Below, one piece after another: positions 1-47,175 of a stretch of DNA of 64,000 nucleotides. The stretch's first letter is position 1, and every line of letters begins with the position of its first letter. The position numbers were made by a program, and so were the translations under genes. The stretch is from positions 19,594,146-19,658,145 of the forward strand of contig CM066919.1 of assembly GCA_033964015.1 (NCBI GenBank), given 5' to 3'. The DNA is from Scolanthus callimorphus (Eukaryota > Cnidaria > Anthozoa > Actiniaria > Edwardsiidae). The notes under the pieces were generated by a model. That model was not told where the DNA came from and did no database searches. It worked only from the letters and a program-made list of their open reading frames with translations.

Positions 1-163
1 AGGCCCAAAATGCAATGTTCGATATTCCGTGTAGACCTTGTTTCACAACATGTTAGCAAAGTTCGAACAAGCTGCGAAATAGTTCATCGCAAACGGAAAA
101 GAAAGTCGCTATATTCTCCTTAATTGAATAACTCATTCTGTTACACTGCCTGTGGTCACGCTA

Positions 164-273
164 ATTGCGCGCGCAATCAAAACAGACGAGTTTCCACTGA
201 AACTCGTCTGTAAATAAAAGATTTGTGACTACTCATAACTTTCTCAGTAAAACGAGTTTCAATGGAAACTCGT
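164..273. repeat. Hairpin pair between 3' ends of transposase and rep, copy 1
   Basis: Three dyads in 110 bp: a 14-bp palindrome ATTGCGCGCGCAAT (164-177); a perfect 13-bp stem with loop CACT (182-211); and a 9-bp stem with loop AATG (252-273). The 22-mer at 186-207 and the reverse complement of 252-273 differ at one base, so the two hairpins are inverted copies of one motif. Possible roles are a Rep nick or origin site, or a boundary between converging transcripts. I saw no canonical CRESS nonanucleotide such as TAGTATTAC in the loops. Confidence 0.8.
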
Positions 274-363
274 CCATTCCGCATGCGCGGATCCACAGGT
301 ATTCCGAAAGCTAAACGAACACAAACTTTCTGAAAAAATATACATGGCAGTGCTTCCCGCTCA

Positions 364-1754
364 CTATGCTAGTAAAAAATGTGCAAAGCATCTGCCGCAC
401 GGCTCAATCGAGACCTGGTCAGCTTCTTGAATCTGATGTGTAAAAGAAAACACCCTCCAGCGCACTCTCATCATCTCTGTCTCCCTCTCGTCTACTGCGT
501 TTCCAGTAAGCGACAATATTTCAGACTTTGATGTACAAAACACAGGAGTGTCGCTGCCAAATGTGATGTCCTCGGCATAGTGTGTCTTAGGAGCTGGTAG
601 GTGCACGGGTTGCCCTTCCAAGAGCAATAGCATATCATGCCATGGCATTACTTTTGGCGACCACCTAAAGTCATTCAGAAATATCACCTCAGCTTTCTCA
701 GCCCCAACCCAAGCAAAAGTTGTGGTTGCTGGGTTTTGAAAGGCATTATAGACAACAGTCAAGGGGCGCAAGAGAAACGTCTTAGCAGTATTAGCTGGGC
801 CTTTAAGGAATACATTTCTGTACTTTCCTCTACCTTTCTCTAATAGCAGAATAATGGCATTTCTAAAAGCATCTGCGTCAATGTTGTTATTGTTGAGAAC
901 CTCTAGTGCCATTTCGCACCAGCGCCCTCTACAGCCATTCGCGTGATCTAGAGTCAGCGCGTTTTGGAGAATTTCCATGCGACTCATGCGCTGGCGTCTA
1001 AGTTTTTCATTGGAATACTCCAGCTCCCAGGCAATATGAAGAGCCTCCTCGACTACCTTTTGCCTCTTGCTGATAATAAATTGAGCTATTTCAGTTTTGC
1101 CTTCGTCCTTCTGCTGCTTTGCAAAGGCCAAAAGCGCGAGATAGGTTTTGATACCTCGTGACACAGCACTCTCAGTAACTTCATACATATTTATTTTTCG
1201 CTTCTTTGGTGCGATCTCTTCTCCCACCTCTATTGCCTCTCGTTCTTCGTCCCCTGTCTCTCGTGCTCTCAAATGAGCCTGTGAAGCGGCTGTCGTTGTT
1301 GGTGGGCGAGCGTCCCACAGATCGGGGTGATTCTGAGACTGCAAGACGTTAGCGTCTTCTTTGATTATATACCTCCAAGCGAAGTAATAGTTCGGATGTC
1401 TGTCAGAAAATTAACTTTTACTCCATACTTGGTGTCTAGATAATTTCGGGCACTTAGCCACCGCTTTGGAGCGCTAAGTTTAAGCGCCATGTGATAATGG
1501 CGTCCTCCGTCGCCATGATTTTCCTCGCAGCACGCCCAGTGCAGTATTTCTACGGGAGGATTGTCGGCGTTTCGAGGATTTACAGGACGTTGACTAAAGG
1601 CTTCGAGAACAATTTCCGAGAATCTCTCCCGTGTGGGAACAATATCCAAATCAGCTCTGCTGTAGGTTATTAGATAAACTCGACGGAAAAGACTCCTGTT
1701 AGGCAGCGCATTCGCCATGTTTAGTGTGTTTGGTTTGCACCAAAAGAATTTCAC
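364..1754 (-). pseudogene. Rep protein (HUH endonuclease + SF3 helicase), copy 1, frame-broken
   Basis: Two open frames on the minus strand read as one Rep gene. The first (1754 to 1365, 129 aa) has the HUH-endonuclease strand motif YLITYS (about residues 27-32) and the metal-binding HYH (residues 86-88). The second (326 aa, ending at 364) has an SF3 helicase with Walker A GPANTAKT, Walker B EVIFLNDFRW and motif C PVFCTSKS. The frame changes near the A4 run at 1407-1410. The probable catalytic tyrosine motif YIIK (codons at 1371-1360) is in the second frame, upstream of its first ATG, so it belongs to the joined gene. The true start may be the internal Met at codon 13. The expected role is rolling-circle or rolling-hairpin initiation: nicking DNA and unwinding it. 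Oddities are an Ala where Walker A normally has Gly, and Lys where SF3 motif C usually has Asn. The break may be real decay or a sequencing deletion. Confidence 0.85.
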
Positions 1755-2186
1755 ATGTTAAAATTCGTCTGTCGTGTGGCTGTCGGGAAACCATTTCACA
1801 GCTAATTCAATCAACAAAAGCGCCGCGTTTACCATTACAGTTGCTTTAATAAAAAGATCGCACTTTTAAGCTCCGTGTTTTAGGCGATGTTTTTAGGGTT
1901 CTGTATACTTTTTCTTGGCGTTTTGAAGTTTAGATAGTCAGAATATGGAAATACCTTCGTTAACTCCTAATAATTTTCACAAATTAAGTTCTATACGCGA
2001 TAAACTTTTTCTAGCGTACTGCATAGCTCATGTCATTTGCAAATTCACACTTTCAAACCGGTAATACGAGAAAACCGTTTTAAAAATAGCTAAAACTCCC
2101 CCTTCTTATTCCTTCCTATCCCGCTTGTTAGAAACCCTGCGCTACAGTTATTACGTTACTTGGAAAATGACACCCATATACGGCTA

Positions 2187-2347
2187 TACAACCAAATGCA
2201 AAATGTTGGAACACTTTGCAGAGAGAACGCGCTCTCCCTGCCCTCCCTTTCAATGTTGTCCAAAATTGTGTTCAGTAATTTTTTCTGGTCAACATTGGGA
2301 GGGGAAGGAAGGACAGGGTGTTCCAACGACTTATGCATTTGGTTGTA
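2187..2347. repeat. 161-bp imperfect palindrome (ITR-like), copy 1
   Basis: Begins TACAACCAAATGCA and ends with its complement TGCATTTGGTTGTA. Further pairing continues inward: TTGGAACA with TGTTCCAA, and CCCTGCCCTCCC...CAATGTTG with CAACATTGGGAGGGG...CAGGG, leaving a loop around 2260-2290. One arm carries an extra small hairpin (GAGAG-aacgcg-CTCTC near 2220-2236), so the fold would be branched. TA flanks both ends. It lies between the divergent 5' ends of rep and transposase. It could be a terminal repeat of a linear element, a Tc1/mariner binding site, or a MITE inserted in the ancestral unit. Confidence 0.85.
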
Positions 2348-2531
2348 TACCATGATTGACAGGGTCATGACCTCAATTATCACGCTGTTATCGTTACGCG
2401 GAGTGTACGTAGTGTTGCTCTACACTGAAGTGCTCGCGTGTCTCATTGCTAATGACGTCTAACTATAAACAATTCACACTCGATTTTTCTAGTATAAGTT
2501 GATTACAATAGTAAATCACGTCGTGAGGATC

Positions 2532-2539
2532 TATAAAAA
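2532..2539 (+). promoter_or_regulatory. TATA box of transposase, copy 1
   Basis: TATAAAAA, 62 bp upstream of the transposase ATG, a normal distance for a TATA-driven start near 2560 with a short leader. Confidence 0.5.
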
Positions 2540-2593
2540 AGGTGTGCTTTAAGTTCACGTTCAGATTGCGTTGCTTTTGCTACAAAAACTAGA

Positions 2594-3682
2594 ATGGTGT
2601 TTAAGAGACATATCCCCGCTGATGTAAAAGCGATGATATTTAAATTACGGCAGAAAACAGACCTAAGTAAAAGAGCTATTGCCAAAGCTTGTGGAGTTTC
2701 TCCTTCGTCTGTCTTACGTGTGCTCGGTGGAAAATCAAAACTGAAACAAATTCCCAAGCGTGGCGGCAGGGCTCCAAAATTGACTGAGAGGCAAAAAGAA
2801 CTATTACTGCGTAGCGTTCCAGTTGTTCGTTTGCGAAACCCCTGTTTTACAATCCGGGAACTAATGAAAGAGTGTGGGATTGAAGACGCAGATGTTTCAG
2901 AGACTACAGTAGGACGCTTTCTGAAAAAACAAGGCTATGATTATCGGTACGCAAGAAAGAAGGGCGTTCTGAAGGCAGAAGATTTGGTGAAGCGCTTGGC
3001 ATTTGCGACTGCGGTGAAAAATAACTATAGCGACGATTTCTGGACAAATGAATTTGCATTTTTTCTGGACGGTGTATCTCTAGCATATAAAAGGAATCCC
3101 TTAGGGAATGCGAGGTCTCCAAAAGGACGGATATGGAGGAAAAAGAACGAGGGGTTGTCATTTGGGTGCACTGCGAAGGGTAGCAAGGAGGGTACTGGAG
3201 GAAAGCTAGTGAAACTGTTCGTCGCTATTAGCCATAACGAAGGTGTGGTTTTGTGTGAGTCTTACAAGCACTTAAATGGGCCTTATTTTGCTAGACTAGT
3301 ACGAAGGAATTTCAATAGGGTATTTCATTTGGCTAATAAGAACGGCAGTAGATTTTGGATCCAAGATAATGACCCATCTCAGAACAGTAAGCTTGCAAAA
3401 ATTGCAATGAGTCAGTGTGCTTGCAGAGACACATTGATTGCCATTCCTGCTCGCTCGCCTGATCTCAATCCAATCGAAAACATTTTCCATATTCTAAAGC
3501 AGGATTTAAAAAGAAATGCAATACGGTTACAAATAAATAAGGAGACATTTGAAGAGTTTGAGCGACGAGTCATTCAAACTTTATATGAAATACCACTTGA
3601 GATTATCAACAGGACAATCGCTTCTATGTCAAATAGATTAGCAATGATCATAGAAAACAATGGGCGGCGCACCAAATATTGA
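2594..3682 (+). CDS. Tc1/mariner-type DDE transposase, copy 1
   Basis: Intact 362-residue frame. Two helix-turn-helix regions form the DNA-binding half: residues about 23-43 (KRAIAKACGVSPSSV) and 86-114. The RNase-H-like catalytic domain has D159 (FFLDG), D258 (IQDND) and E295 (SPDLNPIEN), so 36 residues separate the second Asp and the Glu, a DD36E spacing. The family cuts and pastes DNA between terminal inverted repeats into TA sites. The start is the first ATG, about 62 bp after a TATA box at 2532. It lies directly beyond the 161-bp palindrome and reads towards the 3' end of rep. In most animal genomes such a gene sits alone between simple TIRs; here it shares a unit with a Rep gene, which is unusual. 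Uninterrupted frames in copies 1-3 suggest it was functional until recently. Confidence 0.93.
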   Translation: MVFKRHIPADVKAMIFKLRQKTDLSKRAIAKACGVSPSSVLRVLGGKSKLKQIPKRGGRAPKLTERQKELLLRSVPVVRLRNPCFTIRELMKECGIEDADVSETTVGRFLKKQGYDYRYARKKGVLKAEDLVKRLAFATAVKNNYSDDFWTNEFAFFLDGVSLAYKRNPLGNARSPKGRIWRKKNEGLSFGCTAKGSKEGTGGKLVKLFVAISHNEGVVLCESYKHLNGPYFARLVRRNFNRVFHLANKNGSRFWIQDNDPSQNSKLAKIAMSQCACRDTLIAIPARSPDLNPIENIFHILKQDLKRNAIRLQINKETFEEFERRVIQTLYEIPLEIINRTIASMSNRLAMIIENNGRRTKY

Positions 3683-4162
3683 TTATACTTTTATTATAAT
3701 TATGGAAAATGGTTGTGCTGAAACACTTTTGGGTACATGTAATACTCTAAACCGTGTGGCATAACATCAATTTGTATATCGGCTGCGTGTTGAAATGTCA
3801 TTTAGGAGCGCAATACAACTATGAAACTTAGCGTTTGGGAGAACGCTAAATAGAGTAAGTAAAGCGTATTATTGATAAACAAATGCATCTGTTTACTTTG
3901 TCTGGCAGAAAAGTTCTTACACATTTTTCTTACACATCGGTTTGATAAACGAATGCGATCTTATTAGATACAGTTTATGCTGTGTTCTGCACAAACTACA
4001 GGCCCAAAATGCAATGTTCGATATTCCGTGTAGACCTTGTTTCACAACATGTTAGCAAAGTTCGAACAAGCTGCGAAATAGTTCATCGCAAACGGAAAAG
4101 AAAGTCGCTATATTCTCCTTAATTGAATAACTCATTCTGTTACACTGCCTGTGGTCACGCTA

Positions 4163-4272
4163 ATTGCGCGCGCAATCAAAACAGACGAGTTTCCACTGAA
4201 ACTCGTCTGTAAATAAAAGATTTGTGACTACTCATAACTTTCTCAGTAAAACGAGTTTCAATGGAAACTCGT
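4163..4272. repeat. Hairpin pair, copy 2
   Basis: Same three dyads as at 164-273: GC palindrome, hairpin at 4181-4210 and inverted hairpin at 4251-4272, between transposase 1 and rep 2. Confidence 0.8.
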
Positions 4273-4362
4273 CCATTCCGCATGCGCGGATCCACAGGTA
4301 TTCCGAAAGCTAAACGAACACAAACTTTCTGAAAAAATATACATGGCAGTGCTTCCCGCTCA

Positions 4363-5753
4363 CTATGCTAGTAAAAAATGTGCAAAGCATCTGCCGCACG
4401 GCTCAATCGAGACCTGGTCAGCTTCTTGAATCTGATGTGTAAAAGAAAACACCCTCCAGCGCACTCTCATCATCTCTGTCTCCCTCTCGTCTACTGCGTT
4501 TCCAGTAAGCGACAATATTTCAGACTTTGATGTACAAAACACAGGAGTGTCGCTGCCAAATGTGATGTCCTCGGCATAGTGTGTCTTAGGAGCTGGTAGG
4601 TGCACGGGTTGCCCTTCCAAGAGCAATAGCATATCATGCCATGGCATTACTTTTGGCGACCACCTAAAGTCATTCAGAAATATCACCTCAGCTTTCTCAG
4701 CCCCAACCCAAGCAAAAGTTGTGGTTGCTGGGTTTTGAAAGGCATTATAGACAACAGTCAAGGGGCGCAAGAGAAACGTCTTAGCAGTATTAGCTGGGCC
4801 TTTAAGGAATACATTTCTGTACTTTCCTCTACCTTTCTCTAATAGCAGAATAATGGCATTTCTAAAAGCATCTGCGTCAATGTTGTTATTGTTGAGAACC
4901 TCTAGTGCCATTTCGCACCAGCGCCCTCTACAGCCATTCGCGTGATCTAGAGTCAGCGCGTTTTGGAGAATTTCCATGCGACTCATGCGCTGGCGTCTAA
5001 GTTTTTCATTGGAATACTCCAGCTCCCAGGCAATATGAAGAGCCTCCTCGACTACCTTTTGCCTCTTGCTGATAATAAATTGAGCTATTTCAGTTTTGCC
5101 TTCGTCCTTCTGCTGCTTTGCAAAGGCCAAAAGCGCGAGATAGGTTTTGATACCTCGTGACACAGCACTCTCAGTAACTTCATACATATTTATTTTTCGC
5201 TTCTTTGGTGCGATCTCTTCTCCCACCTCTATTGCCTCTCGTTCTTCGTCCCCTGTCTCTCGTGCTCTCAAATGAGCCTGTGAAGCGGCTGTCGTTGTTG
5301 GTGGGCGAGCGTCCCACAGATCGGGGTGATTCTGAGACTGCAAGACGTTAGCGTCTTCTTTGATTATATACCTCCAAGCGAAGTAATAGTTCGGATGTCT
5401 GTCAGAAAATTAACTTTTACTCCATACTTGGTGTCTAGATAATTTCGGGCACTTAGCCACCGCTTTGGAGCGCTAAGTTTAAGCGCCATGTGATAATGGC
5501 GTCCTCCGTCGCCATGATTTTCCTCGCAGCACGCCCAGTGCAGTATTTCTACGGGAGGATTGTCGGCGTTTCGAGGATTTACAGGACGTTGACTAAAGGC
5601 TTCGAGAACAATTTCCGAGAATCTCTCCCGTGTGGGAACAATATCCAAATCAGCTCTGCTGTAGGTTATTAGATAAACTCGACGGAAAAGACTCCTGTTA
5701 GGCAGCGCATTCGCCATGTTTAGTGTGTTTGGTTTGCACCAAAAGAATTTCAC
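4363..5753 (-). pseudogene. Rep protein (HUH + SF3), copy 2, frame-broken
   Basis: Same sequence as the copy at 364-1754, with the same frame change (near 5406-5409) between the HUH part (5753-5364) and the helicase part (5343-4363). It converges with the transposase ending at 3682, with the two hairpins in between. I found no difference from copy 1 in the coding part. Confidence 0.85.
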
Positions 5754-6185
5754 ATGTTAAAATTCGTCTGTCGTGTGGCTGTCGGGAAACCATTTCACAG
5801 CTAATTCAATCAACAAAAGCGCCGCGTTTACCATTACAGTTGCTTTAATAAAAAGATCGCACTTTTAAGCTCCGTGTTTTAGGCGATGTTTTTAGGGTTC
5901 TGTATACTTTTTCTTGGCGTTTTGAAGTTTAGATAGTCAGAATATGGAAATACCTTCGTTAACTCCTAATAATTTTCACAAATTAAGTTCTATACGCGAT
6001 AAACTTTTTCTAGCGTACTGCATAGCTCATGTCATTTGCAAATTCACACTTTCAAACCGGTAATACGAGAAAACCGTTTTAAAAATAGCTAAAACTCCCC
6101 CTTCTTATTCCTTCCTATCCCGCTTGTTAGAAACCCTGCGCTACAGTTATTACGTTACTTGGAAAATGACACCCATATACGGCTA

Positions 6186-6346
6186 TACAACCAAATGCAA
6201 AATGTTGGAACACTTTGCAGAGAGAACGCGCTCTCCCTGCCCTCCCTTTCAATGTTGTCCAAAATTGTGTTCAGTAATTTTTTCTGGTCAACATTGGGAG
6301 GGGAAGGAAGGACAGGGTGTTCCAACGACTTATGCATTTGGTTGTA
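6186..6346. repeat. 161-bp imperfect palindrome (ITR-like), copy 2
   Basis: Second copy of the branched palindrome, between rep (5' end at 5753) and transposase (start 6593). TA follows each terminal heptamer, as in copy 1. Confidence 0.85.
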
Positions 6347-6530
6347 TACCATGATTGACAGGGTCATGACCTCAATTATCACGCTGTTATCGTTACGCGG
6401 AGTGTACGTAGTGTTGCTCTACACTGAAGTGCTCGCGTGTCTCATTGCTAATGACGTCTAACTATAAACAATTCACACTCGATTTTTCTAGTATAAGTTG
6501 ATTACAATAGTAAATCACGTCGTGAGGATC

Positions 6531-6538
6531 TATAAAAA
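6531..6538 (+). promoter_or_regulatory. TATA box of transposase, copy 2
   Basis: Same TATAAAAA, 62 bp before the ATG at 6593. Confidence 0.5.
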
Positions 6539-6592
6539 AGGTGTGCTTTAAGTTCACGTTCAGATTGCGTTGCTTTTGCTACAAAAACTAGA

Positions 6593-7681
6593 ATGGTGTT
6601 TAAGAGACATATCCCCGCTGATGTAAAAGCGATGATATTTAAATTACGGCAGAAAACAGACCTAAGTAAAAGAGCTATTGCCAAAGCTTGTGGAGTTTCT
6701 CCTTCGTCTGTCTTACGTGTGCTCGGTGGAAAATCAAAACTGAAACAAATTCCCAAGCGTGGCGGCAGGGCTCCAAAATTGACTGAGAGGCAAAAAGAAC
6801 TATTACTGCGTAGCGTTCCAGTTGTTCGTTTGCGAAACCCCTGTTTTACAATCCGGGAACTAATGAAAGAGTGTGGGATTGAAGACGCAGATGTTTCAGA
6901 GACTACAGTAGGACGCTTTCTGAAAAAACAAGGCTATGATTATCGGTACGCAAGAAAGAAGGGCGTTCTGAAGGCAGAAGATTTGGTGAAGCGCTTGGCA
7001 TTTGCGACTGCGGTGAAAAATAACTATAGCGACGATTTCTGGACAAATGAATTTGCATTTTTTCTGGACGGTGTATCTCTAGCATATAAAAGGAATCCCT
7101 TAGGGAATGCGAGGTCTCCAAAAGGACGGATATGGAGGAAAAAGAACGAGGGGTTGTCATTTGGGTGCACTGCGAAGGGTAGCAAGGAGGGTACTGGAGG
7201 AAAGCTAGTGAAACTGTTCGTCGCTATTAGCCATAACGAAGGTGTGGTTTTGTGTGAGTCTTACAAGCACTTAAATGGGCCTTATTTTGCTAGACTAGTA
7301 CGAAGGAATTTCAATAGGGTATTTCATTTGGCTAATAAGAACGGCAGTAGATTTTGGATCCAAGATAATGACCCATCTCAGAACAGTAAGCTTGCAAAAA
7401 TTGCAATGAGTCAGTGTGCTTGCAGAGACACATTGATTGCCATTCCTGCTCGCTCGCCTGATCTCAATCCAATCGAAAACATTTTCCATATTCTAAAGCA
7501 GGATTTAAAAAGAAATGCAATACGGTTACAAATAAATAAGGAGACATTTGAAGAGTTTGAGCGACGAGTCATTCAAACTTTATATGAAATACCACTTGAG
7601 ATTATCAACAGGACAATCGCTTCTATGTCAAATAGATTAGCAATGATCATAGAAAACAATGGGCGGCGCACCAAATATTGA
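6593..7681 (+). CDS. Tc1/mariner-type DDE transposase, copy 2
   Basis: Translation identical to the copy at 2594-3682: 362 residues, catalytic D159, D258 and E295. It is flanked by the palindrome at 6186-6346 upstream and hairpins at 8163-8271 downstream. Confidence 0.93.
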   Translation: MVFKRHIPADVKAMIFKLRQKTDLSKRAIAKACGVSPSSVLRVLGGKSKLKQIPKRGGRAPKLTERQKELLLRSVPVVRLRNPCFTIRELMKECGIEDADVSETTVGRFLKKQGYDYRYARKKGVLKAEDLVKRLAFATAVKNNYSDDFWTNEFAFFLDGVSLAYKRNPLGNARSPKGRIWRKKNEGLSFGCTAKGSKEGTGGKLVKLFVAISHNEGVVLCESYKHLNGPYFARLVRRNFNRVFHLANKNGSRFWIQDNDPSQNSKLAKIAMSQCACRDTLIAIPARSPDLNPIENIFHILKQDLKRNAIRLQINKETFEEFERRVIQTLYEIPLEIINRTIASMSNRLAMIIENNGRRTKY

Positions 7682-8161
7682 TTATACTTTTATTATAATT
7701 ATGGAAAATGGTTGTGCTGAAACACTTTTGGGTACATGTAATACTCTAAACCGTGTGGCATAACATCAATTTGTATATCGGCTGCGTGTTGAAATGTCAT
7801 TTAGGAGCGCAATACAACTATGAAACTTAGCGTTTGGGAGAACGCTAAATAGAGTAAGTAAAGCGTATTATTGATAAACAAATGCATCTGTTTACTTTGT
7901 CTGGCAGAAAAGTTCTTACACATTTTTCTTACACATCGGTTTGATAAACGAATGCGATCTTATTAGATACAGTTTATGCTGTGTTCTGCACAAACTACAG
8001 GCCCAAAATGCAATGTTCGATATTCCGTGTAGACCTTGTTTCACAACATGTTAGCAAAGTTCGAACAAGCTGCGAAATAGTTCATCGCAAACGGAAAAGA
8101 AAGTCGCTATATTCTCCTTAATTGAATAACTCATTCTGTTACACTGCCTGTGGTCACGCTA

Positions 8162-8271
8162 ATTGCGCGCGCAATCAAAACAGACGAGTTTCCACTGAAA
8201 CTCGTCTGTAAATAAAAGATTTGTGACTACTCATAACTTTCTCAGTAAAACGAGTTTCAATGGAAACTCGT
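8162..8271. repeat. Hairpin pair, copy 3
   Basis: Same dyads, hairpins at 8180-8209 and 8250-8271, between transposase 2 and rep 3. Confidence 0.8.
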
Positions 8272-8361
8272 CCATTCCGCATGCGCGGATCCACAGGTAT
8301 TCCGAAAGCTAAACGAACACAAACTTTCTGAAAAAATATACATGGCAGTGCTTCCCGCTCA

Positions 8362-9752
8362 CTATGCTAGTAAAAAATGTGCAAAGCATCTGCCGCACGG
8401 CTCAATCGAGACCTGGTCAGCTTCTTGAATCTGATGTGTAAAAGAAAACACCCTCCAGCGCACTCTCATCATCTCTGTCTCCCTCTCGTCTACTGCGTTT
8501 CCAGTAAGCGACAATATTTCAGACTTTGATGTACAAAACACAGGAGTGTCGCTGCCAAATGTGATGTCCTCGGCATAGTGTGTCTTAGGAGCTGGTAGGT
8601 GCACGGGTTGCCCTTCCAAGAGCAATAGCATATCATGCCATGGCATTACTTTTGGCGACCACCTAAAGTCATTCAGAAATATCACCTCAGCTTTCTCAGC
8701 CCCAACCCAAGCAAAAGTTGTGGTTGCTGGGTTTTGAAAGGCATTATAGACAACAGTCAAGGGGCGCAAGAGAAACGTCTTAGCAGTATTAGCTGGGCCT
8801 TTAAGGAATACATTTCTGTACTTTCCTCTACCTTTCTCTAATAGCAGAATAATGGCATTTCTAAAAGCATCTGCGTCAATGTTGTTATTGTTGAGAACCT
8901 CTAGTGCCATTTCGCACCAGCGCCCTCTACAGCCATTCGCGTGATCTAGAGTCAGCGCGTTTTGGAGAATTTCCATGCGACTCATGCGCTGGCGTCTAAG
9001 TTTTTCATTGGAATACTCCAGCTCCCAGGCAATATGAAGAGCCTCCTCGACTACCTTTTGCCTCTTGCTGATAATAAATTGAGCTATTTCAGTTTTGCCT
9101 TCGTCCTTCTGCTGCTTTGCAAAGGCCAAAAGCGCGAGATAGGTTTTGATACCTCGTGACACAGCACTCTCAGTAACTTCATACATATTTATTTTTCGCT
9201 TCTTTGGTGCGATCTCTTCTCCCACCTCTATTGCCTCTCGTTCTTCGTCCCCTGTCTCTCGTGCTCTCAAATGAGCCTGTGAAGCGGCTGTCGTTGTTGG
9301 TGGGCGAGCGTCCCACAGATCGGGGTGATTCTGAGACTGCAAGACGTTAGCGTCTTCTTTGATTATATACCTCCAAGCGAAGTAATAGTTCGGATGTCTG
9401 TCAGAAAATTAACTTTTACTCCATACTTGGTGTCTAGATAATTTCGGGCACTTAGCCACCGCTTTGGAGCGCTAAGTTTAAGCGCCATGTGATAATGGCG
9501 TCCTCCGTCGCCATGATTTTCCTCGCAGCACGCCCAGTGCAGTATTTCTACGGGAGGATTGTCGGCGTTTCGAGGATTTACAGGACGTTGACTAAAGGCT
9601 TCGAGAACAATTTCCGAGAATCTCTCCCGTGTGGGAACAATATCCAAATCAGCTCTGCTGTAGGTTATTAGATAAACTCGACGGAAAAGACTCCTGTTAG
9701 GCAGCGCATTCGCCATGTTTAGTGTGTTTGGTTTGCACCAAAAGAATTTCAC
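8362..9752 (-). pseudogene. Rep protein (HUH + SF3), copy 3, frame-broken
   Basis: Third copy, again split into a 129-aa HUH frame (9752-9363) and a 326-aa SF3 helicase frame (9342-8362). The break is at the same base as in copies 1 and 2, so it was either amplified with the array or imposed by a shared consensus error. Confidence 0.85.
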
Positions 9753-10184
9753 ATGTTAAAATTCGTCTGTCGTGTGGCTGTCGGGAAACCATTTCACAGC
9801 TAATTCAATCAACAAAAGCGCCGCGTTTACCATTACAGTTGCTTTAATAAAAAGATCGCACTTTTAAGCTCCGTGTTTTAGGCGATGTTTTTAGGGTTCT
9901 GTATACTTTTTCTTGGCGTTTTGAAGTTTAGATAGTCAGAATATGGAAATACCTTCGTTAACTCCTAATAATTTTCACAAATTAAGTTCTATACGCGATA
10001 AACTTTTTCTAGCGTACTGCATAGCTCATGTCATTTGCAAATTCACACTTTCAAACCGGTAATACGAGAAAACCGTTTTAAAAATAGCTAAAACTCCCCC
10101 TTCTTATTCCTTCCTATCCCGCTTGTTAGAAACCCTGCGCTACAGTTATTACGTTACTTGGAAAATGACACCCATATACGGCTA

Positions 10185-10345
10185 TACAACCAAATGCAAA
10201 ATGTTGGAACACTTTGCAGAGAGAACGCGCTCTCCCTGCCCTCCCTTTCAATGTTGTCCAAAATTGTGTTCAGTAATTTTTTCTGGTCAACATTGGGAGG
10301 GGAAGGAAGGACAGGGTGTTCCAACGACTTATGCATTTGGTTGTA
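10185..10345. repeat. 161-bp imperfect palindrome (ITR-like), copy 3
   Basis: Third copy, same sequence and context, between rep 5' end (9752) and transposase start (10592). Confidence 0.85.
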
Positions 10346-10529
10346 TACCATGATTGACAGGGTCATGACCTCAATTATCACGCTGTTATCGTTACGCGGA
10401 GTGTACGTAGTGTTGCTCTACACTGAAGTGCTCGCGTGTCTCATTGCTAATGACGTCTAACTATAAACAATTCACACTCGATTTTTCTAGTATAAGTTGA
10501 TTACAATAGTAAATCACGTCGTGAGGATC

Positions 10530-10537
10530 TATAAAAA
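10530..10537 (+). promoter_or_regulatory. TATA box of transposase, copy 3
   Basis: Same TATAAAAA, 62 bp before the ATG at 10592. Confidence 0.5.
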
Positions 10538-10591
10538 AGGTGTGCTTTAAGTTCACGTTCAGATTGCGTTGCTTTTGCTACAAAAACTAGA

Positions 10592-11680
10592 ATGGTGTTT
10601 AAGAGACATATCCCCGCTGATGTAAAAGCGATGATATTTAAATTACGGCAGAAAACAGACCTAAGTAAAAGAGCTATTGCCAAAGCTTGTGGAGTTTCTC
10701 CTTCGTCTGTCTTACGTGTGCTCGGTGGAAAATCAAAACTGAAACAAATTCCCAAGCGTGGCGGCAGGGCTCCAAAATTGACTGAGAGGCAAAAAGAACT
10801 ATTACTGCGTAGCGTTCCAGTTGTTCGTTTGCGAAACCCCTGTTTTACAATCCGGGAACTAATGAAAGAGTGTGGGATTGAAGACGCAGATGTTTCAGAG
10901 ACTACAGTAGGACGCTTTCTGAAAAAACAAGGCTATGATTATCGGTACGCAAGAAAGAAGGGCGTTCTGAAGGCAGAAGATTTGGTGAAGCGCTTGGCAT
11001 TTGCGACTGCGGTGAAAAATAACTATAGCGACGATTTCTGGACAAATGAATTTGCATTTTTTCTGGACGGTGTATCTCTAGCATATAAAAGGAATCCCTT
11101 AGGGAATGCGAGGTCTCCAAAAGGACGGATATGGAGGAAAAAGAACGAGGGGTTGTCATTTGGGTGCACTGCGAAGGGTAGCAAGGAGGGTACTGGAGGA
11201 AAGCTAGTGAAACTGTTCGTCGCTATTAGCCATAACGAAGGTGTGGTTTTGTGTGAGTCTTACAAGCACTTAAATGGGCCTTATTTTGCTAGACTAGTAC
11301 GAAGGAATTTCAATAGGGTATTTCATTTGGCTAATAAGAACGGCAGTAGATTTTGGATCCAAGATAATGACCCATCTCAGAACAGTAAGCTTGCAAAAAT
11401 TGCAATGAGTCAGTGTGCTTGCAGAGACACATTGATTGCCATTCCTGCTCGCTCGCCTGATCTCAATCCAATCGAAAACATTTTCCATATTCTAAAGCAG
11501 GATTTAAAAAGAAATGCAATACGGTTACAAATAAATAAGGAGACATTTGAAGAGTTTGAGCGACGAGTCATTCAAACTTTATATGAAATACCACTTGAGA
11601 TTATCAACAGGACAATCGCTTCTATGTCAAATAGATTAGCAATGATCATAGAAAACAATGGGCGGCGCACCAAATATTGA
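10592..11680 (+). CDS. Tc1/mariner-type DDE transposase, copy 3
   Basis: Third intact 362-residue copy, identical in translation to copies 1 and 2. TATA box at 10530; palindrome at 10185-10345 upstream. Confidence 0.93.
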   Translation: MVFKRHIPADVKAMIFKLRQKTDLSKRAIAKACGVSPSSVLRVLGGKSKLKQIPKRGGRAPKLTERQKELLLRSVPVVRLRNPCFTIRELMKECGIEDADVSETTVGRFLKKQGYDYRYARKKGVLKAEDLVKRLAFATAVKNNYSDDFWTNEFAFFLDGVSLAYKRNPLGNARSPKGRIWRKKNEGLSFGCTAKGSKEGTGGKLVKLFVAISHNEGVVLCESYKHLNGPYFARLVRRNFNRVFHLANKNGSRFWIQDNDPSQNSKLAKIAMSQCACRDTLIAIPARSPDLNPIENIFHILKQDLKRNAIRLQINKETFEEFERRVIQTLYEIPLEIINRTIASMSNRLAMIIENNGRRTKY

Positions 11681-12160
11681 TTATACTTTTATTATAATTA
11701 TGGAAAATGGTTGTGCTGAAACACTTTTGGGTACATGTAATACTCTAAACCGTGTGGCATAACATCAATTTGTATATCGGCTGCGTGTTGAAATGTCATT
11801 TAGGAGCGCAATACAACTATGAAACTTAGCGTTTGGGAGAACGCTAAATAGAGTAAGTAAAGCGTATTATTGATAAACAAATGCATCTGTTTACTTTGTC
11901 TGGCAGAAAAGTTCTTACACATTTTTCTTACACATCGGTTTGATAAACGAATGCGATCTTATTAGATACAGTTTATGCTGTGTTCTGCACAAACTACAGG
12001 CCCAAAATGCAATGTTCGATATTCCGTGTAGACCTTGTTTCACAACATGTTAGCAAAGTTCGAACAAGCTGCGAAATAGTTCATCGCAAACGGAAAAGAA
12101 AGTCGCTATATTCTCCTTAATTGAATAACTCATTCTGTTACACTGCCTGTGGTCACGCTA

Positions 12161-12270
12161 ATTGCGCGCGCAATCAAAACAGACGAGTTTCCACTGAAAC
12201 TCGTCTGTAAATAAAAGATTTGTGACTACTCATAACTTTCTCAGTAAAACGAGTTTCAATGGAAACTCGT
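12161..12270. repeat. Hairpin pair, copy 4
   Basis: Same dyads, hairpins at 12179-12208 and 12249-12270, between transposase 3 and rep 4. Confidence 0.8.
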
Positions 12271-12360
12271 CCATTCCGCATGCGCGGATCCACAGGTATT
12301 CCGAAAGCTAAACGAACACAAACTTTCTGAAAAAATATACATGGCAGTGCTTCCCGCTCA

Positions 12361-13751
12361 CTATGCTAGTAAAAAATGTGCAAAGCATCTGCCGCACGGC
12401 TCAATCGAGACCTGGTCAGCTTCTTGAATCTGATGTGTAAAAGAAAACACCCTCCAGCGCACTCTCATCATCTCTGTCTCCCTCTCGTCTACTGCGTTTC
12501 CAGTAAGCGACAATATTTCAGACTTTGATGTACAAAACACAGGAGTGTCGCTGCCAAATGTGATGTCCTCGGCATAGTGTGTCTTAGGAGCTGGTAGGTG
12601 CACGGGTTGCCCTTCCAAGAGCAATAGCATATCATGCCATGGCATTACTTTTGGCGACCACCTAAAGTCATTCAGAAATATCACCTCAGCTTTCTCAGCC
12701 CCAACCCAAGCAAAAGTTGTGGTTGCTGGGTTTTGAAAGGCATTATAGACAACAGTCAAGGGGCGCAAGAGAAACGTCTTAGCAGTATTAGCTGGGCCTT
12801 TAAGGAATACATTTCTGTACTTTCCTCTACCTTTCTCTAATAGCAGAATAATGGCATTTCTAAAAGCATCTGCGTCAATGTTGTTATTGTTGAGAACCTC
12901 TAGTGCCATTTCGCACCAGCGCCCTCTACAGCCATTCGCGTGATCTAGAGTCAGCGCGTTTTGGAGAATTTCCATGCGACTCATGCGCTGGCGTCTAAGT
13001 TTTTCATTGGAATACTCCAGCTCCCAGGCAATATGAAGAGCCTCCTCGACTACCTTTTGCCTCTTGCTGATAATAAATTGAGCTATTTCAGTTTTGCCTT
13101 CGTCCTTCTGCTGCTTTGCAAAGGCCAAAAGCGCGAGATAGGTTTTGATACCTCGTGACACAGCACTCTCAGTAACTTCATACATATTTATTTTTCGCTT
13201 CTTTGGTGCGATCTCTTCTCCCACCTCTATTGCCTCTCGTTCTTCGTCCCCTGTCTCTCGTGCTCTCAAATGAGCCTGTGAAGCGGCTGTCGTTGTTGGT
13301 GGGCGAGCGTCCCACAGATCGGGGTGATTCTGAGACTGCAAGACGTTAGCGTCTTCTTTGATTATATACCTCCAAGCGAAGTAATAGTTCGGATGTCTGT
13401 CAGAAAATTAACTTTTACTCCATACTTGGTGTCTAGATAATTTCGGGCACTTAGCCACCGCTTTGGAGCGCTAAGTTTAAGCGCCATGTGATAATGGCGT
13501 CCTCCGTCGCCATGATTTTCCTCGCAGCACGCCCAGTGCAGTATTTCTACGGGAGGATTGTCGGCGTTTCGAGGATTTACAGGACGTTGACTAAAGGCTT
13601 CGAGAACAATTTCCGAGAATCTCTCCCGTGTGGGAACAATATCCAAATCAGCTCTGCTGTAGGTTATTAGATAAACTCGACGGAAAAGACTCCTGTTAGG
13701 CAGCGCATTCGCCATGTTTAGTGTGTTTGGTTTGCACCAAAAGAATTTCAC
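12361..13751 (-). pseudogene. Rep protein (HUH + SF3), copy 4, frame-broken
   Basis: Fourth copy with the same two frames (13751-13362 and 13341-12361) and the same break. The neighbouring transposase of this unit (14591-15678) has a frameshift of its own, but this rep shows no extra damage. Confidence 0.85.
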
Positions 13752-14183
13752 ATGTTAAAATTCGTCTGTCGTGTGGCTGTCGGGAAACCATTTCACAGCT
13801 AATTCAATCAACAAAAGCGCCGCGTTTACCATTACAGTTGCTTTAATAAAAAGATCGCACTTTTAAGCTCCGTGTTTTAGGCGATGTTTTTAGGGTTCTG
13901 TATACTTTTTCTTGGCGTTTTGAAGTTTAGATAGTCAGAATATGGAAATACCTTCGTTAACTCCTAATAATTTTCACAAATTAAGTTCTATACGCGATAA
14001 ACTTTTTCTAGCGTACTGCATAGCTCATGTCATTTGCAAATTCACACTTTCAAACCGGTAATACGAGAAAACCGTTTTAAAAATAGCTAAAACTCCCCCT
14101 TCTTATTCCTTCCTATCCCGCTTGTTAGAAACCCTGCGCTACAGTTATTACGTTACTTGGAAAATGACACCCATATACGGCTA

Positions 14184-14344
14184 TACAACCAAATGCAAAA
14201 TGTTGGAACACTTTGCAGAGAGAACGCGCTCTCCCTGCCCTCCCTTTCAATGTTGTCCAAAATTGTGTTCAGTAATTTTTTCTGGTCAACATTGGGAGGG
14301 GAAGGAAGGACAGGGTGTTCCAACGACTTATGCATTTGGTTGTA
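14184..14344. repeat. 161-bp imperfect palindrome (ITR-like), copy 4
   Basis: Fourth copy, the last one followed by a transposase gene. Confidence 0.85.
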
Positions 14345-14528
14345 TACCATGATTGACAGGGTCATGACCTCAATTATCACGCTGTTATCGTTACGCGGAG
14401 TGTACGTAGTGTTGCTCTACACTGAAGTGCTCGCGTGTCTCATTGCTAATGACGTCTAACTATAAACAATTCACACTCGATTTTTCTAGTATAAGTTGAT
14501 TACAATAGTAAATCACGTCGTGAGGATC

Positions 14529-14536
14529 TATAAAAA
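14529..14536 (+). promoter_or_regulatory. TATA box of transposase, copy 4
   Basis: Same TATAAAAA, 62 bp before the ATG at 14591. Confidence 0.5.
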
Positions 14537-14590
14537 AGGTGTGCTTTAAGTTCACGTTCAGATTGCGTTGCTTTTGCTACAAAAACTAGA

Positions 14591-15678
14591 ATGGTGTTTA
14601 AGAGACATATCCCCGCTGATGTAAAAGCGATGATATTTAAATTACGGCAGAAAACAGACCTAAGTAAAAGAGCTATTGCCAAAGCTTGTGGAGTTTCTCC
14701 TTCGTCTGTCTTACGTGTGCTCGGTGGAAAATCAAAACTGAAACAAATTCCCAAGCGTGGCGGCAGGGCTCCAAAATTGACTGAGAGGCAAAAAGAACTA
14801 TTACTGCGTAGCGTTCCAGTTGTTCGTTTGCGAAACCCCTGTTTTACAATCCGGGAACTAATGAAAGAGTGTGGGATTGAAGACGCAGATGTTTCAGAGA
14901 CTACAGTAGGACGCTTTCTGAAAAAACAAGGCTATGATTATCGGTACGCAAGAAAGAAGGGCGTTCTGAAGGCAGAAGATTTGGTGAAGCGCTTGGCATT
15001 TGCGACTGCGGTGAAAAATAACTATAGCGACGATTTCTGGACAAATGAATTTGCATTTTTTCTGGACGGTGTATCTCTAGCATATAAAAGAAATCCCTTA
15101 GGGAATGCGAGGTCTCCAAAAGGACGGATATGGAGGAAAAAGAACGAGGGGTTGTCATTTGGGTGCACTGCGAAGGGTAGCAAGGAGGGTACTGGAGGAA
15201 AGCTAGTGAAACTGTTCGTCGCTATTAGCCATAACGAAGGTGTGGTTTTGTGTGAGTCTTACAAGCACTTAAATGGGCCTTATTTTGCTAGACTAGTACG
15301 AAGGAATTTCAATAGGGTATTTCATTTGGCTAATAAGAACGGCAGTAGATTTTGGATCCAAGATAATGACCCATCTCAGAACAGTAAGCTTGCAAAAATT
15401 GCAATGAGTCAGTGTGCTTGCAGAGACACATTGATTGCCATTCCTGCTCGCTCGCCTGATCTCAATCCAATCGAAAACATTTTCCATATTCTAAAGCAGG
15501 ATTTAAAAAGAAATGCAATACGGTTACAAATAAATAAGGAGACATTTGAAGAGTTTGAGCGACGAGTCATTCAAACTTTATATGAAATACCACTTGAGAT
15601 TATCAACAGGACAATCGCTTCTATGTCAATAGATTAGCAATGATCATAGAAAACAATGGGCGGCGCACCAAATATTGA
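14591..15678 (+). pseudogene. Tc1/mariner-type DDE transposase, copy 4, C-terminal frameshift
   Basis: Identical to the other copies through residue 346, but an AAA run near 15628 has lost one A. The frame then stops at 15637 (348 aa) instead of 15678, removing about the last 15 residues. All catalytic residues are upstream of the break. A G-to-A change near 15090 is silent. This is the last transposase copy before the array edge. Confidence 0.88.
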
Positions 15679-16158
15679 TTATACTTTTATTATAATTATG
15701 GAAAATGGTTGTGCTGAAACACTTTTGGGTACATGTAATACTCTAAACCGTGTGGCATAACATCAATTTGTATATCGGCTGCGTGTTGAAATGTCATTTA
15801 GGAGCGCAATACAACTATGAAACTTAGCGTTTGGGAGAACGCTAAATAGAGTAAGTAAAGCGTATTATTGATAAACAAATGCATCTGTTTACTTTGTCTG
15901 GCAGAAAAGTTCTTACACATTTTTCTTACACATCGGTTTGATAAACGAATGCGATCTTATTAGATACAGTTTATGCTGTGTTCTGCACAAACTACAGGCC
16001 CAAAATGCAATGTTCGATATTCCGTGTAGACCTTGTTTCACAACATGTTAGCAAAGTTCGAACAAGCTGCGAAATAGTTCATCGCAAACGGAAAAGAAAG
16101 TCGCTATATTCTCCTTAATTGAATAACTCATTCTGTTACACTGCCTGTGGTCACGCTA

Positions 16159-16268
16159 ATTGCGCGCGCAATCAAAACAGACGAGTTTCCACTGAAACTC
16201 GTCTGTAAATAAAAGATTTGTGACTACTCATAACTTTCTCAGTAAAACGAGTTTCAATGGAAACTCGT
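16159..16268. repeat. Hairpin pair, copy 5
   Basis: Same dyads, hairpins at 16177-16206 and 16247-16268, between transposase 4 and rep 5. Confidence 0.8.
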
Positions 16269-16358
16269 CCATTCCGCATGCGCGGATCCACAGGTATTCC
16301 GAAAGCTAAACGAACACAAACTTTCTGAAAAAATATACATGGCAGTGCTTCCCGCTCA

Positions 16359-17748
16359 CTATGCTAGTAAAAAATGTGCAAAGCATCTGCCGCACGGCTC
16401 AATCGAGACCTGGTCAGCTTCTTGAATCTGATGTGTAAAAGAAAACACCCTCCAGCGCACTCTCATCATCTCTGTCTCCCTCTCGTCTACTGCGTTTCCA
16501 GTAAGCGACAATATTTCAGACTTTGATGTACAAAACACAGGAGTGTCGCTGCCAAATGTGATGTCCTCGGCATAGTGTGTCTTAGGAGCTGGTAGGTGCA
16601 CGGGTTGCCCTTCCAAGAGCAATAGCATATCATGCCATGGCATTACTTTTGGCGACCACCTAAAGTCATTCAGAAATATCACCTCAGCTTTCTCAGCCCC
16701 AACCCAAGCAAAAGTTGTGGTTGCTGGGTTTGAAAGGCATTATAGACAACAGTCAAGGGGCGCAAGAGAAACGTCTTAGCAGTATTAGCTGGGCCTTTAA
16801 GGAATACATTTCTGTACTTTCCTCTACCTTTCTCTAATAGCAGAATAATGGCATTTCTAAAAGCATCTGCGTCAATGTTGTTATTGTTGAGAACCTCTAG
16901 TGCCATTTCGCACCAGCGCCCTCTACAGCCATTCGCGTGATCTAGAGTCAGCGCGTTTTGGAGAATTTCCATGCGACTCATGCGCTGGCGTCTAAGTTTT
17001 TCATTGGAATACTCCAGCTCCCAGGCAATATGAAGAGCCTCCTCGACTACCTTTTGCCTCTTGCTGATAATAAATTGAGCTATTTCAGTTTTGCCTTCGT
17101 CCTTCTGCTGCTTTGCAAAGGCCAAAAGCGCGAGATAGGTTTTGATACCTCGTGACACAGCACTCTCAGTAACTTCATACATATTTATTTTTCGCTTCTT
17201 TGGTGCGATCTCTTCTCCCACCTCTATTGCCTCTCGTTCTTCGTCCCCTGTCTCTCGTGCTCTCAAATGAGCCTGTGAAGCGGCTGTCGTTGTTGGTGGG
17301 CGAGCGTCCCACAGATCGGGGTGATTCTGAGACTGCAAGACGTTAGCGTCTTCTTTGATTATATACCTCCAAGCGAAGTAATAGTTCGGATGTCTGTCAG
17401 AAAATTAACTTTTACTCCATACTTGGTGTCTAGATAATTTCGGGCACTTAGCCACCGCTTTGGAGCGCTAAGTTTAAGCGCCATGTGATAATGGCGTCCT
17501 CCGTCGCCATGATTTTCCTCGCAGCACGCCCAGTGCAGTATTTCTACGGGAGGATTGTCGGCGTTTCGAGGATTTACAGGACGTTGACTAAAGGCTTCGA
17601 GAACAATTTCCGAGAATCTCTCCCGTGTGGGAACAATATCCAAATCAGCTCTGCTGTAGGTTATTAGATAAACTCGACGGAAAAGACTCCTGTTAGGCAG
17701 CGCATTCGCCATGTTTAGTGTGTTTGGTTTGCACCAAAAGAATTTCAC
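16359..17748 (-). pseudogene. Rep protein (HUH + SF3), copy 5, doubly frame-broken
   Basis: Last copy, next to the array edge. Besides the common break between HUH part (17748-17359) and helicase part, a T run near 16729-16731 is one base shorter than in copies 1-4. This splits the helicase after Walker A (219-aa frame 17338-16679) from the segment carrying Walker B and motif C (107-aa frame 16682-16359). No transposase follows: the array ends 592 bp beyond the rep 5' end, before the transposase would begin. Confidence 0.85.
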
Positions 17749-18179
17749 ATGTTAAAATTCGTCTGTCGTGTGGCTGTCGGGAAACCATTTCACAGCTAAT
17801 TCAATCAACAAAAGCGCCGCGTTTACCATTACAGTTGCTTTAATAAAAGATCGCACTTTTAAGCTCCGTGTTTTAGGCGATGTTTTTAGGGTTCTGTATA
17901 CTTTTTCTTGGCGTTTTGAAGTTTAGATAGTCAGAATATGGAAATACCTTCGTTAACTCCTAATAATTTTCACAAATTAAGTTCTATACGCGATAAACTT
18001 TTTCTAGCGTACTGCATAGCTCATGTCATTTGCAAATTCACACTTTCAAACCGGTAATACGAGAAAACCGTTTTAAAAATAGCTAAAACTCCCCCTTCTT
18101 ATTCCTTCCTATCCCGCTTGTTAGAAACCCTGCGCTACAGTTATTACGTTACTTGGAAAATGACACCCATATACGGCTA

Positions 18180-18340
18180 TACAACCAAATGCAAAATGTT
18201 GGAACACTTTGCAGAGAGAACGCGCTCTCCCTGCCCTCCCTTTCAATGTTGTCCAAAATTGTGTTCAGTAATTTTTTCTGGTCAACATTGGGAGGGGAAG
18301 GAAGGACAGGGTGTTCCAACGACTTATGCATTTGGTTGTA
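18180..18340. repeat. 161-bp palindrome forming the right edge of the array
   Basis: Fifth copy. Its outer end TTTGGTTGTA is where similarity to the unit stops: internal copies continue TACCATGATT, here the sequence continues GCTAGACTGA, which appears unique. The array therefore ends exactly at a palindrome terminus carrying TA, as expected for a TA-targeted insertion end or an ITR-bounded integration. Confidence 0.85.
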
Positions 18341-19562: not shown

Positions 19563-44359
<24,797 letters not shown>

Positions 44360-46371: not shown

Positions 46372-46499
46372 ACATTCATCGATACTTATTTTACGTTAAC
46401 TCTCATTTTTTGCTTGCTTCTTTTTTTCACCAAAGTTTTGCTGATTTCTTTCACCCTTTTTTGTTTGAACTTTTGGTTCAGTTTGTATGCTTCGCCGAT

Positions 46500-47175
46500 T
46501 TTTTATTTGTTTTGCTAATTTGTCCAATTCGAAACAAGTTTTTAGACAGAGGAGTCTCTGTAGGTTTATCTACAAGCGTTTGTTTGTTTGTTTGTTTTGT
46601 TTGTTTGGTAAACCATTTGTTTGTTTGTTTTACCACCATATATTTTAGTCGTCCAAATTGAAAATCAAGTTATTAGACAGATAAGTTTCTGTAGATTTAC
46701 CTACGAGCGATGGTTTGTTTTGTTTGCTCAACCATTTGCTTGATTGTTTGTGTTCACCAAGGTCGTCTAATTTGAAAATCAAGTGATTAGACAGAGAAGT
46801 CTCTGTAGATTTATCTACAAGCTGTGTTTGCTTGCTAAACCATCTGTTGTTTGTTTGTTTCACCAAAGAGGTATTTTAGTTGTCCAAATCGAAAATTAAG
46901 TTATTAGACAGACGTCTTTGTAGTTTTTATGTACGAGTGTTTCTTCTTTGTTTTCTAAATCACCATTTGTTTGTCTGTTTTACCAGAGGTATTTTAGTCG
47001 CCCAAATCTCGAAAATTAAGCTATTAGACAGATAAGTATCTGTAGAGGTTATTTTACGAGTGTTTTCTTTGTTTGCTAAATCACCATTGGTTTGTTTCTT
47101 TTAACAACTTTTTGTATTTTAGTCGTCCAATTCAAAAATTAAGTATTAGACAGAGAAAGTCTCTGTTGGTTTATC
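46500..47175. repeat. About 120-bp minisatellite derived from the DNAAF2 terminal exon, copy 1
   Basis: Six to seven units, each with a TTAGACAGA.AAGTCTCTGT block, then a TTTATCTACAAG block, a GTTTGTTTG-rich spacer and GTCGTCCAA. On the minus strand the blocks read LVDKSTETSLSNNLIFNLDD, echoing the DNAAF2 C-terminus LVDKPTETFSV. Confidence 0.8.

Follow-up and report, generated by a model that had tools for sequence, protein, structure and literature searches.

A tandemly repeated 3999-bp unit pairing a Rep with a Tc1/mariner-type transposase

Introduction

The pairing of a Rep with a transposase has a precedent: in 2011 a recently amplified geminivirus-like transposon with a Rep-like ORF, transposase ORFs and terminal inverted repeats was described in Tuber melanosporum (PMC3198968). 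Teratorn is a piggyBac-herpesvirus fusion of 180 kb (PMC10175614). A parvovirus-type Rep and a Tc1/mariner transposase in one element did not turn up among the listed titles and opening lines of abstracts of open-licence PMC papers; Repbase, which lies outside this scope, may hold such an element. Tc1/mariner elements such as Sleeping Beauty and Mos1 are not known to carry a gene other than the transposase. Helitrons join an HUH Rep to a Pif1-type SF1 helicase, Polintons include a polymerase gene among their family features, and some densoviruses have an ambisense layout. The logic of Rep plus transposase has reportedly been brought together by vector builders in a hybrid AAV-transposase vector.

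Here we describe a stretch of 64,000 nucleotides from Scolanthus callimorphus (the window), in which a 3999-bp unit is repeated 4.6 times in tandem, head to tail, over positions 1..18340. We lean towards reading this unit as a composite DNA transposon in which a parvovirus/CRESS-type replicon carries a Tc1/mariner-type transposase; it would be copied extrachromosomally with the help of Rep and would enter the chromosome by means of the transposase. On the evidence given below this seems to us somewhat probable.

Results

The unit carries a Tc1/mariner-type transposase on one strand and a Rep (HUH endonuclease plus SF3 helicase) on the other, and the two genes point away from a 161-bp palindrome and run towards paired hairpins. 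Both this gene content and the ambisense layout between palindromes had been proposed in the initial annotation and are borne out, the transposase by Pfam and fold and the Rep by the alignment with its relatives and the fold of one of them. The transposase of copy 1 (2594..3682, plus strand; ORF, Pfam and fold) has 362 aa. Its ORF recurs on the same strand in copy 2 (6593..7681) and copy 3 (10592..11680), and comparison of the copies showed that copy 4 (14591..15637, plus strand) is frame-broken near the end and has 348 aa; of the four copies that the window contains, three have an open reading frame. The Pfam domains HTH_Tnp_Tc3_2 (38 bits, curated cut-off 31.5) and DDE_3 (36.8 bits, cut-off 28.6) were recognised, the sequence matches Sleeping Beauty, and the predicted fold matches Mos1 and Sleeping Beauty. 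The catalytic triad consists of D159, D258 and E295, where D258 is the residue that we take to be the catalytic D from the Sleeping Beauty alignment and from recall. Between D258 and E295 lie 36 residues. This spacing occurs in 8 of 121 transposases, the one from the window included; 88 have a spacing of 34, and the pattern is missing in 25.

The 326-aa protein, which the initial annotation had taken for the whole Rep, comprises only the linker and the SF3 helicase; the HUH endonuclease motif resides in a 129-aa ORF in another frame. In copy 1 this N part lies at 1365..1754 and is followed by a frame break, and the C part lies at 364..1344 (both minus strand; ORF and alignment). The corresponding ORFs on the minus strand are located at 5364..5753 and 4363..5343 in copy 2, 9363..9752 and 8362..9342 in copy 3, 13362..13751 and 12361..13341 in copy 4, and 17359..17748 and 16679..17338 in copy 5, where the comparison of copies revealed a second frame break in the C part. 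Rep is split over two reading frames in all five copies. In copy 1 the tyrosine motif of the family is found in the frame of the C part, in a stretch that lies upstream of the 326-aa ORF and overlaps part of the N ORF, and copies 2-5 are identical to copy 1 around this motif. Therefore, the two ORFs are parts of a single, frame-broken Rep gene and not two genes. The position of this conserved motif led us to reject an intron between the ORFs, and a joining of the two parts by programmed frameshifting is conceivable but not supported. The copies in the window, as they stand, cannot encode an uninterrupted Rep, which counts against the composite reading; to move from this locus, the element would have to draw on the Rep of an intact copy at another place or on recoding.

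Each of the two Rep parts alone stayed below the Pfam cut-off, and comparison of Rep with the sequences in the PDB yielded nothing meaningful. The assignment is based on the alignment with one-piece relatives having both parts and on the fold of one of them, P0011. The helicase of P0011 is closest to AAV Rep and B19 NS1, with papillomavirus E1, whereas the single-domain fold matches of its HUH domain are CRESS-virus Reps (among the 50 matches listed). The likeness to densoviruses noted in the initial annotation is partial: the helicase is parvovirus/papillomavirus-like, but the listed single-domain matches of the HUH domain point to CRESS viruses. Among the relatives listed, 133 of 151 have at least 400 aa, and a pattern search detected all four motifs in 96 of these 133. 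Over 100% of its length, the C part is free of stops and shares 61% identity with the best-scoring relative. These data bear on an account in which the pairing is old and real and only the transposase moves the element; Rep would be a relic or have another role, and the array would result from unequal crossing-over or template switching at the palindrome. A Rep that is frame-broken in five of five copies beside a mostly open transposase agrees with this account, and host repair can duplicate in tandem without Rep. However, one-piece Rep relatives are common, and such a stop-free and conserved C part is unlike long neglect. We regard a purely transposase-driven element as unlikely and prefer the composite transposon that is replicated by its Rep.

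The 3999-bp units, also part of the initial annotation, were confirmed as a tandem arrangement by self-comparison, in which positions 1-14344 of the window match 4000-18340 with 99.97% identity. The offset of the repeat is 3999 over 1-11630 with one mismatch, and beyond this region it is 3998 and then 3997 after single-base losses. Four positions in total distinguish the copies, one by a substitution and three by the loss of 1 nt, and all of these fall in copies 4 and 5; copies 1-3 are identical. The window begins within the array, whose left end and left flank lie outside it. The right end is the exact coordinate 18340, coincides exactly with the outer edge of a palindrome and is located at a TA; the sequence downstream has no match to the unit and continues for 45.7 kb in the window. 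The segment 14184..18340 (4157 bp), which extends from palindrome to palindrome, is probably one single element, with its right end at the end of the array and its left palindrome at a junction inside the array. The unit has no further ATG-started ORF of more than 88 aa that could be a capsid gene, and the replicon is without a recognisable one. Neither Rfam nor tRNA scans found a match in the window, and four ORFs of the flank had none in Pfam.

It is rather doubtful that assembly produced some or all of the array as an artefact, out of reads that came from a high-copy or circular element, a possibility compatible with the composite transposon. The identity of copies 1-3 and an array that is already under way at the start of the window would fit, and noisy long reads could account for the differences in copies 4 and 5. 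Against this, the array stops at a structurally meaningful base and is followed by other sequence, and the unit would stand even if the array were an artefact.

The imperfect palindrome of 161 bp, TACAACCAAATGC...GCATTTGGTTGTA, is located at 2187..2347 in copy 1 and, as judged by sequence identity, at 6186..6346, 10185..10345, 14184..14344 and, at the right end of the array, 18180..18340; all five copies are identical. Its predicted fold (2183-2351) has a z value of -9.35, and 0 of 200 shuffled sequences were equally stable. The same palindrome with its inverted repeat is present at every unit junction and at the right end, the one true end within the window. A search of the window for exact copies of the palindrome end TACAACCAAATGC detected ten occurrences, all in the array. 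Allowing two mismatches, two matches were found in the 45.7 kb of flank, compared with 2.88 expected by chance. The palindrome could in principle be a separate non-autonomous Tc1/mariner MITE; a palindrome-bearing circle would then have recombined homologously into a resident MITE, and the array would end at this MITE. The palindrome alone does have MITE-like inverted ends and folds back, and inside the array it is adjoined by a further TA on either side. But the flank holds no other copy of TACAACCAAATGC, and the palindrome lies between divergent gene starts, the expected place of a terminal repeat or an origin. A resident MITE is in our opinion improbable, and a terminal palindrome belonging to the composite element itself is preferred.

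Between the convergent 3' ends, paired stem-loops whose stems share one sequence, ACGAGTTTC/GAAACTCGT, were identified by folding at 170..289 in copy 1. They lie at 4169..4288 in copy 2 and 16165..16284 in copy 5, and their cores were located by self-complementary matches at 8183..8272 in copy 3 and 12182..12271 in copy 4. The fold of 160-300 has a z value of -7.18, and 0 of 200 shuffles were equally stable. The stem-loops at 170-289 are possible candidates for an origin or for terminators.

Homology searches served to examine whether the two genes recur together on other contigs. They comprised the best 120 of 668 Rep matches and the best 120 of 651 transposase matches; a later search started with a member of an earlier pair, scored the 7996 candidates sharing most words and gave the best 120 of 646 matches, 31 of these 120 being new. 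Among the matches listed, 150 Rep and 120 transposase relatives entered the comparison, with P0094 left out as the size of its contig is not given. Six pairs of Rep and transposase were found on contigs of exactly equal size and source. In 300 shifts the mean was 1.16 pairs, and six were reached in 0 of 300. The sixth pair stems from the search started with a member of an earlier pair; a first comparison (P0094 and P0224 left out) gave five matches with a shift mean of 0.96, a weak result with the largest shift value also at five. Contigs of 3.5-4.75 kb seem to show a local excess of both Rep and transposase. Weighing against the composite reading, only one pair agrees on contigs of more than 8 kb (69 Rep and 39 transposase relatives among the matches listed), and a listed partner exists for only 6 of the 150 Reps and 6 of the 120 transposases; the majority of the listed proteins have none. 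In IMG/VR no relative was detected with the Rep C part, the Rep alignment (27 of the 120 listed) or the transposase alignment (that of the window and 23 of the 120 listed), and the Rep alignment found none in GTDB contigs.

With respect to the case raised in the initial annotation, a pairing that exists only at this locus, the equal contig sizes and sources indirectly support a recurrence of the pair elsewhere. The pairing seems not to be confined to the present locus, which gives the impression of a genuine family of virus-transposon hybrids. Alternatively, one of the two, a Tc1 element or a Rep element, could by chance have inserted into the other, and the nested product could have been amplified at this locus alone. 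This would suit the abundance of both gene kinds and the lack of a listed partner on an equal-sized contig for most listed relatives, but it is highly improbable in view of the excess of pairs over the shifts, the 4-kb contig excess common to both genes and correlated distances.

Discussion

If the unit is a composite transposon, its palindromic ends (TA-CAACCAAATGC...) would be the substrate of the transposase, which would excise the element and insert it at TA. The excised form may be circular, or linear with hairpin-forming ends. Rep would nick and unwind this form and host polymerase would copy it, either as a rolling circle or as a rolling hairpin at the palindrome. Head-to-tail concatemers with one palindrome common to each junction would be the product, and the array at 1-18340 may be such a concatemer, derived from replication, or a unit amplified in place.

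A wider reading, which we put forward tentatively and which may fall somewhat short of being probable, is that separately evolving elements of about 4 kb are widespread in animals. They would be hairpin-ended parvovirus-like replicons in which the capsid was exchanged for a Tc1-type transposase, with extrachromosomal replication by Rep, cut-and-paste entry and multimeric arrays. If true, they would bridge ssDNA viruses and cut-and-paste transposons as capsid-free intermediates. Such a transposon with its own replication initiator would multiply independently of the timing of host replication and would be a natural example of what vector builders have combined by hand. Whether virus-like Reps drive the copy number of transposons would become testable in species with intact copies.

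Like the unit, the Parvoviridae (densoviruses, dependoparvoviruses) have a Rep/NS1 with HUH and SF3 domains, and AAV Rep and B19 NS1 are nearest in helicase fold. Some densoviruses are likewise ambisense; the palindromes of the array lie between units, and the Rep copies in the window are frame-broken. The unit differs from these viruses in that no capsid gene was recognised in it, and the listed single-domain matches of its HUH domain are CRESS Reps. Compared with CRESS-DNA viruses, the unit has hairpins and no capsid ORF. Read as a circle, the present layout corresponds to a CRESS virus as well. With Sleeping Beauty and Mos1 the unit shares transposase domains and fold. It has an inverted repeat, and the right end of the array adjoins a TA; unlike in those elements, 161-bp palindromes form the ends and there is a Rep gene in addition. 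A Helitron is ruled out, the helicase being SF3 by motifs and fold, and so is a Polinton, for whose polymerase gene the unit is too small.

Teratorn likewise joins a cut-and-paste transposase to a viral replication module; in contrast to the unit it has 180 kb, a herpesvirus and a transposase of the piggyBac superfamily (PMC10175614). Parvovirus-type NS1/Rep occurs in repeats of lower animals in the acorn worm element, planarian PIVE and Hydra DENSOV_HM. The acorn worm element resembles the present unit also in its 5' palindromic hairpin, but it retains a capsid (VP1) domain, and for none of the three does the cited account report a transposase (PMC3198968). The Tuber melanosporum element, like the unit, is an integrated repeat with Rep-like and transposase ORFs and terminal inverted repeats; unlike the unit, it has a geminivirus-type Rep and a fungal host. 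In the same account its Rep is interrupted, its two transposase ORFs are of unstated superfamily, its terminal inverted repeats have 37 bp without an obvious target duplication, and neither palindromic ends nor a tandem array are reported (PMC3198968). The nearest published systems are the ssDNA-virus-like transposons (PMC3198968).

Organization of the array and its genes

Self-comparison of the window revealed that 4.6 head-to-tail units of 3999 bp fill positions 1-18340 (copies 1 to 5, from left to right). Only copies 4 and 5 deviate from the others, at four positions in total: by one substitution and three losses of a single base. As the initial annotation had proposed, every full unit carries both Rep and a Tc1/mariner transposase, located on opposite strands.

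The single transposase gene of each unit (2594-3682 on the plus strand in copy 1) encodes 362 aa. The protein matched the Pfam families HTH_Tnp_Tc3_2 and DDE_3 above their cut-offs and the catalytic domain of Sleeping Beauty in sequence, and its predicted fold matched Mos1 and Sleeping Beauty. We read D159, D258 and E295 as the putative catalytic triad, with D258 assigned by alignment to Sleeping Beauty. The D-E spacing is 36; among 121 sequences including that of the window it was 34 in 88 and 36 in 8, and the pattern failed in 25. The open reading frame is intact in copies 1-3 and broken near the end of the gene in copy 4; copy 5 ends short of the gene.

The Rep of the initial annotation, with HUH endonuclease and SF3 helicase, was confirmed as far as both parts are present, but they are split over two frames of the minus strand: a 129-aa ORF bears the HUH motif and the 326-aa ORF is the helicase side. 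In most aligned relatives both parts are joined in one protein. Upstream of the 326-aa ORF the conserved tyrosine motif of the family can be read in the helicase frame without correcting the sequence, and therefore the two ORFs are, judged by sequence, one Rep gene with a frame break. Both ORFs were found in all five copies, with a second break in copy 5. Uninterrupted Reps exist among the relatives: 96 of the 133 listed with at least 400 aa contain all four motifs, as counted with our own patterns.

Palindrome, stem-loops and flanking sequence

Transposase and Rep are read outward from a 161-bp palindrome (2187-2347 in copy 1), whose sequence does not vary among the five copies, and their 3' ends face two stem-loops with a common stem sequence (170-289). 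This bears out the ambisense layout proposed initially. Of 200 shuffled sequences each, none folded as stably as the palindrome (z -9.35) or the stem-loops (z -7.18). The last base of the array at 18340 is also the last base of the palindrome (...GGTTGTA); it is flanked by GCTAG, and different sequence follows. Hence 14184-18340 reads as a putative 4157-bp element bounded by two palindrome copies. The left end of the array, required to recognise a TA duplication, lies outside the window. At each unit junction one palindrome is shared. This trace would be expected from a replicon, hairpin-ended or circular, that forms concatemers, but also from recombination at the repeated palindrome.

The flank contains four self-complementary stretches of 120-240 bp (79-90%; 21919-22107, 25582-25702, 34177-34406 and 38954-39174), which look like fold-back MITEs. 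At 46371-51630 a stretch of 2.6 kb is directly duplicated in tandem; the halves are 97% identical, and each holds an internal array with units of roughly 112-120 bp. Two tandem 158-bp copies with runs of C, 91% alike, are located at 52394-52717. For a 151-aa ORF at 20736-21191, presumably similar to the end of a protein from a non-LTR retrotransposon, Pfam gave no match with E values up to 0.01.

Apparent recurrence of the Rep-transposase pairing

Homology searches yielded 668 hits for Rep and 651 for the transposase. A Rep from another branch, used as query, gave 646 overlapping hits, and 31 of the best 120 were new. Named sources comprise the sea anemones Actinostola and Exaiptasia, the coral Acropora millepora, the sea cucumbers Apostichopus and Holothuria and the brittle star Amphiura. 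On the basis of these names alone, a cnidarian host is probable.

Among the matches listed, we compared the longest contig of each protein (150 Rep, 120 transposase). Six pairs agreed in source and in size to the base (3810, 4287, 4295, 4601, 6287 and 24302 bases); with one list shifted by up to 150 either way, the mean was 1.16 and six was never reached. No pair lay below 3.5 kb (shift mean 0.59), four lay at 3.5-4.65 kb (0.55) and two above (0.02), and none of 300 shifts gave as many in either of the latter classes. A smaller first comparison had given five pairs against a shift mean of 0.96, a number that some shift also produced. Weighing against recurrence, for most proteins of both lists the partner was absent among the matches listed, and above 8 kb only one pair agreed despite 69 Rep and 39 transposase contigs.

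Contigs of 3.5-4.75 kb were in apparent local excess among these matches (33 of 150 Rep, 28 of 120 transposase), with sparse neighbouring bands (12 Rep and 12 transposase contigs at 2.25-3.5 kb; 4 and 5, respectively, at 4.75-8 kb) and 32 and 36 contigs below 2.25 kb. This would be expected if high-copy elements of about 4 kb, tandem or circular, assemble to unit size. Many listed relatives were on short contigs (30 of 150 Rep at 1.5-2.25 kb; 31 of 120 transposase at 1.25-2.25 kb), as if assemblies broke at palindrome and hairpins; these could equally be ordinary short contigs.

Rep and transposase distances of seven pairs were correlated (r = 0.66; 47 of 5040 permutations), which fits common descent, and in both matrices the pair at 3810 bases and the one at 24302 bases were mutually closest.

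Possible mechanism and comparison with known elements

The gene parts, their layout and the right end of the array are observed directly; for cutting and joining, replication and multimer formation we infer a course from the transposase and Rep families. The transposase would cut the element and join it at TA, Rep would nick and unwind the excised form for copying by host polymerase, and the multimers arising could then be integrated or retained. Since no copy here has an unbroken Rep, the array would either be the product of Rep from another copy or have been amplified by host repair.

A truffle element described in PMC3198968 (2011) likewise combines Rep and transposase ORFs, with a Rep that is geminivirus-like. 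The same paper describes parvovirus-like repeats of acorn worm, planarian and Hydra, and its account of them includes no transposase. Teratorn also joins a viral module to a cut-and-paste transposase, in that case a herpesvirus and piggyBac. Parvovirus-like sequences were reported from such phyla in PMC5013282 (2016) and in a survey of 2018 that covered sea anemone and starfish among others (PMC6085071), where piRNA-like small RNAs were described and partial integration was suspected. Among the open-licence PMC papers listed by our literature searches, none described an element that unites a Rep of parvovirus type with a Tc1/mariner transposase. Given the truffle element and related reports, the Rep-transposase hybrid is not new as an idea. 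What seems to be new is the combination of parvovirus-type Rep and Tc1/mariner transposase, together with its palindromes and an apparent spread among marine invertebrates.
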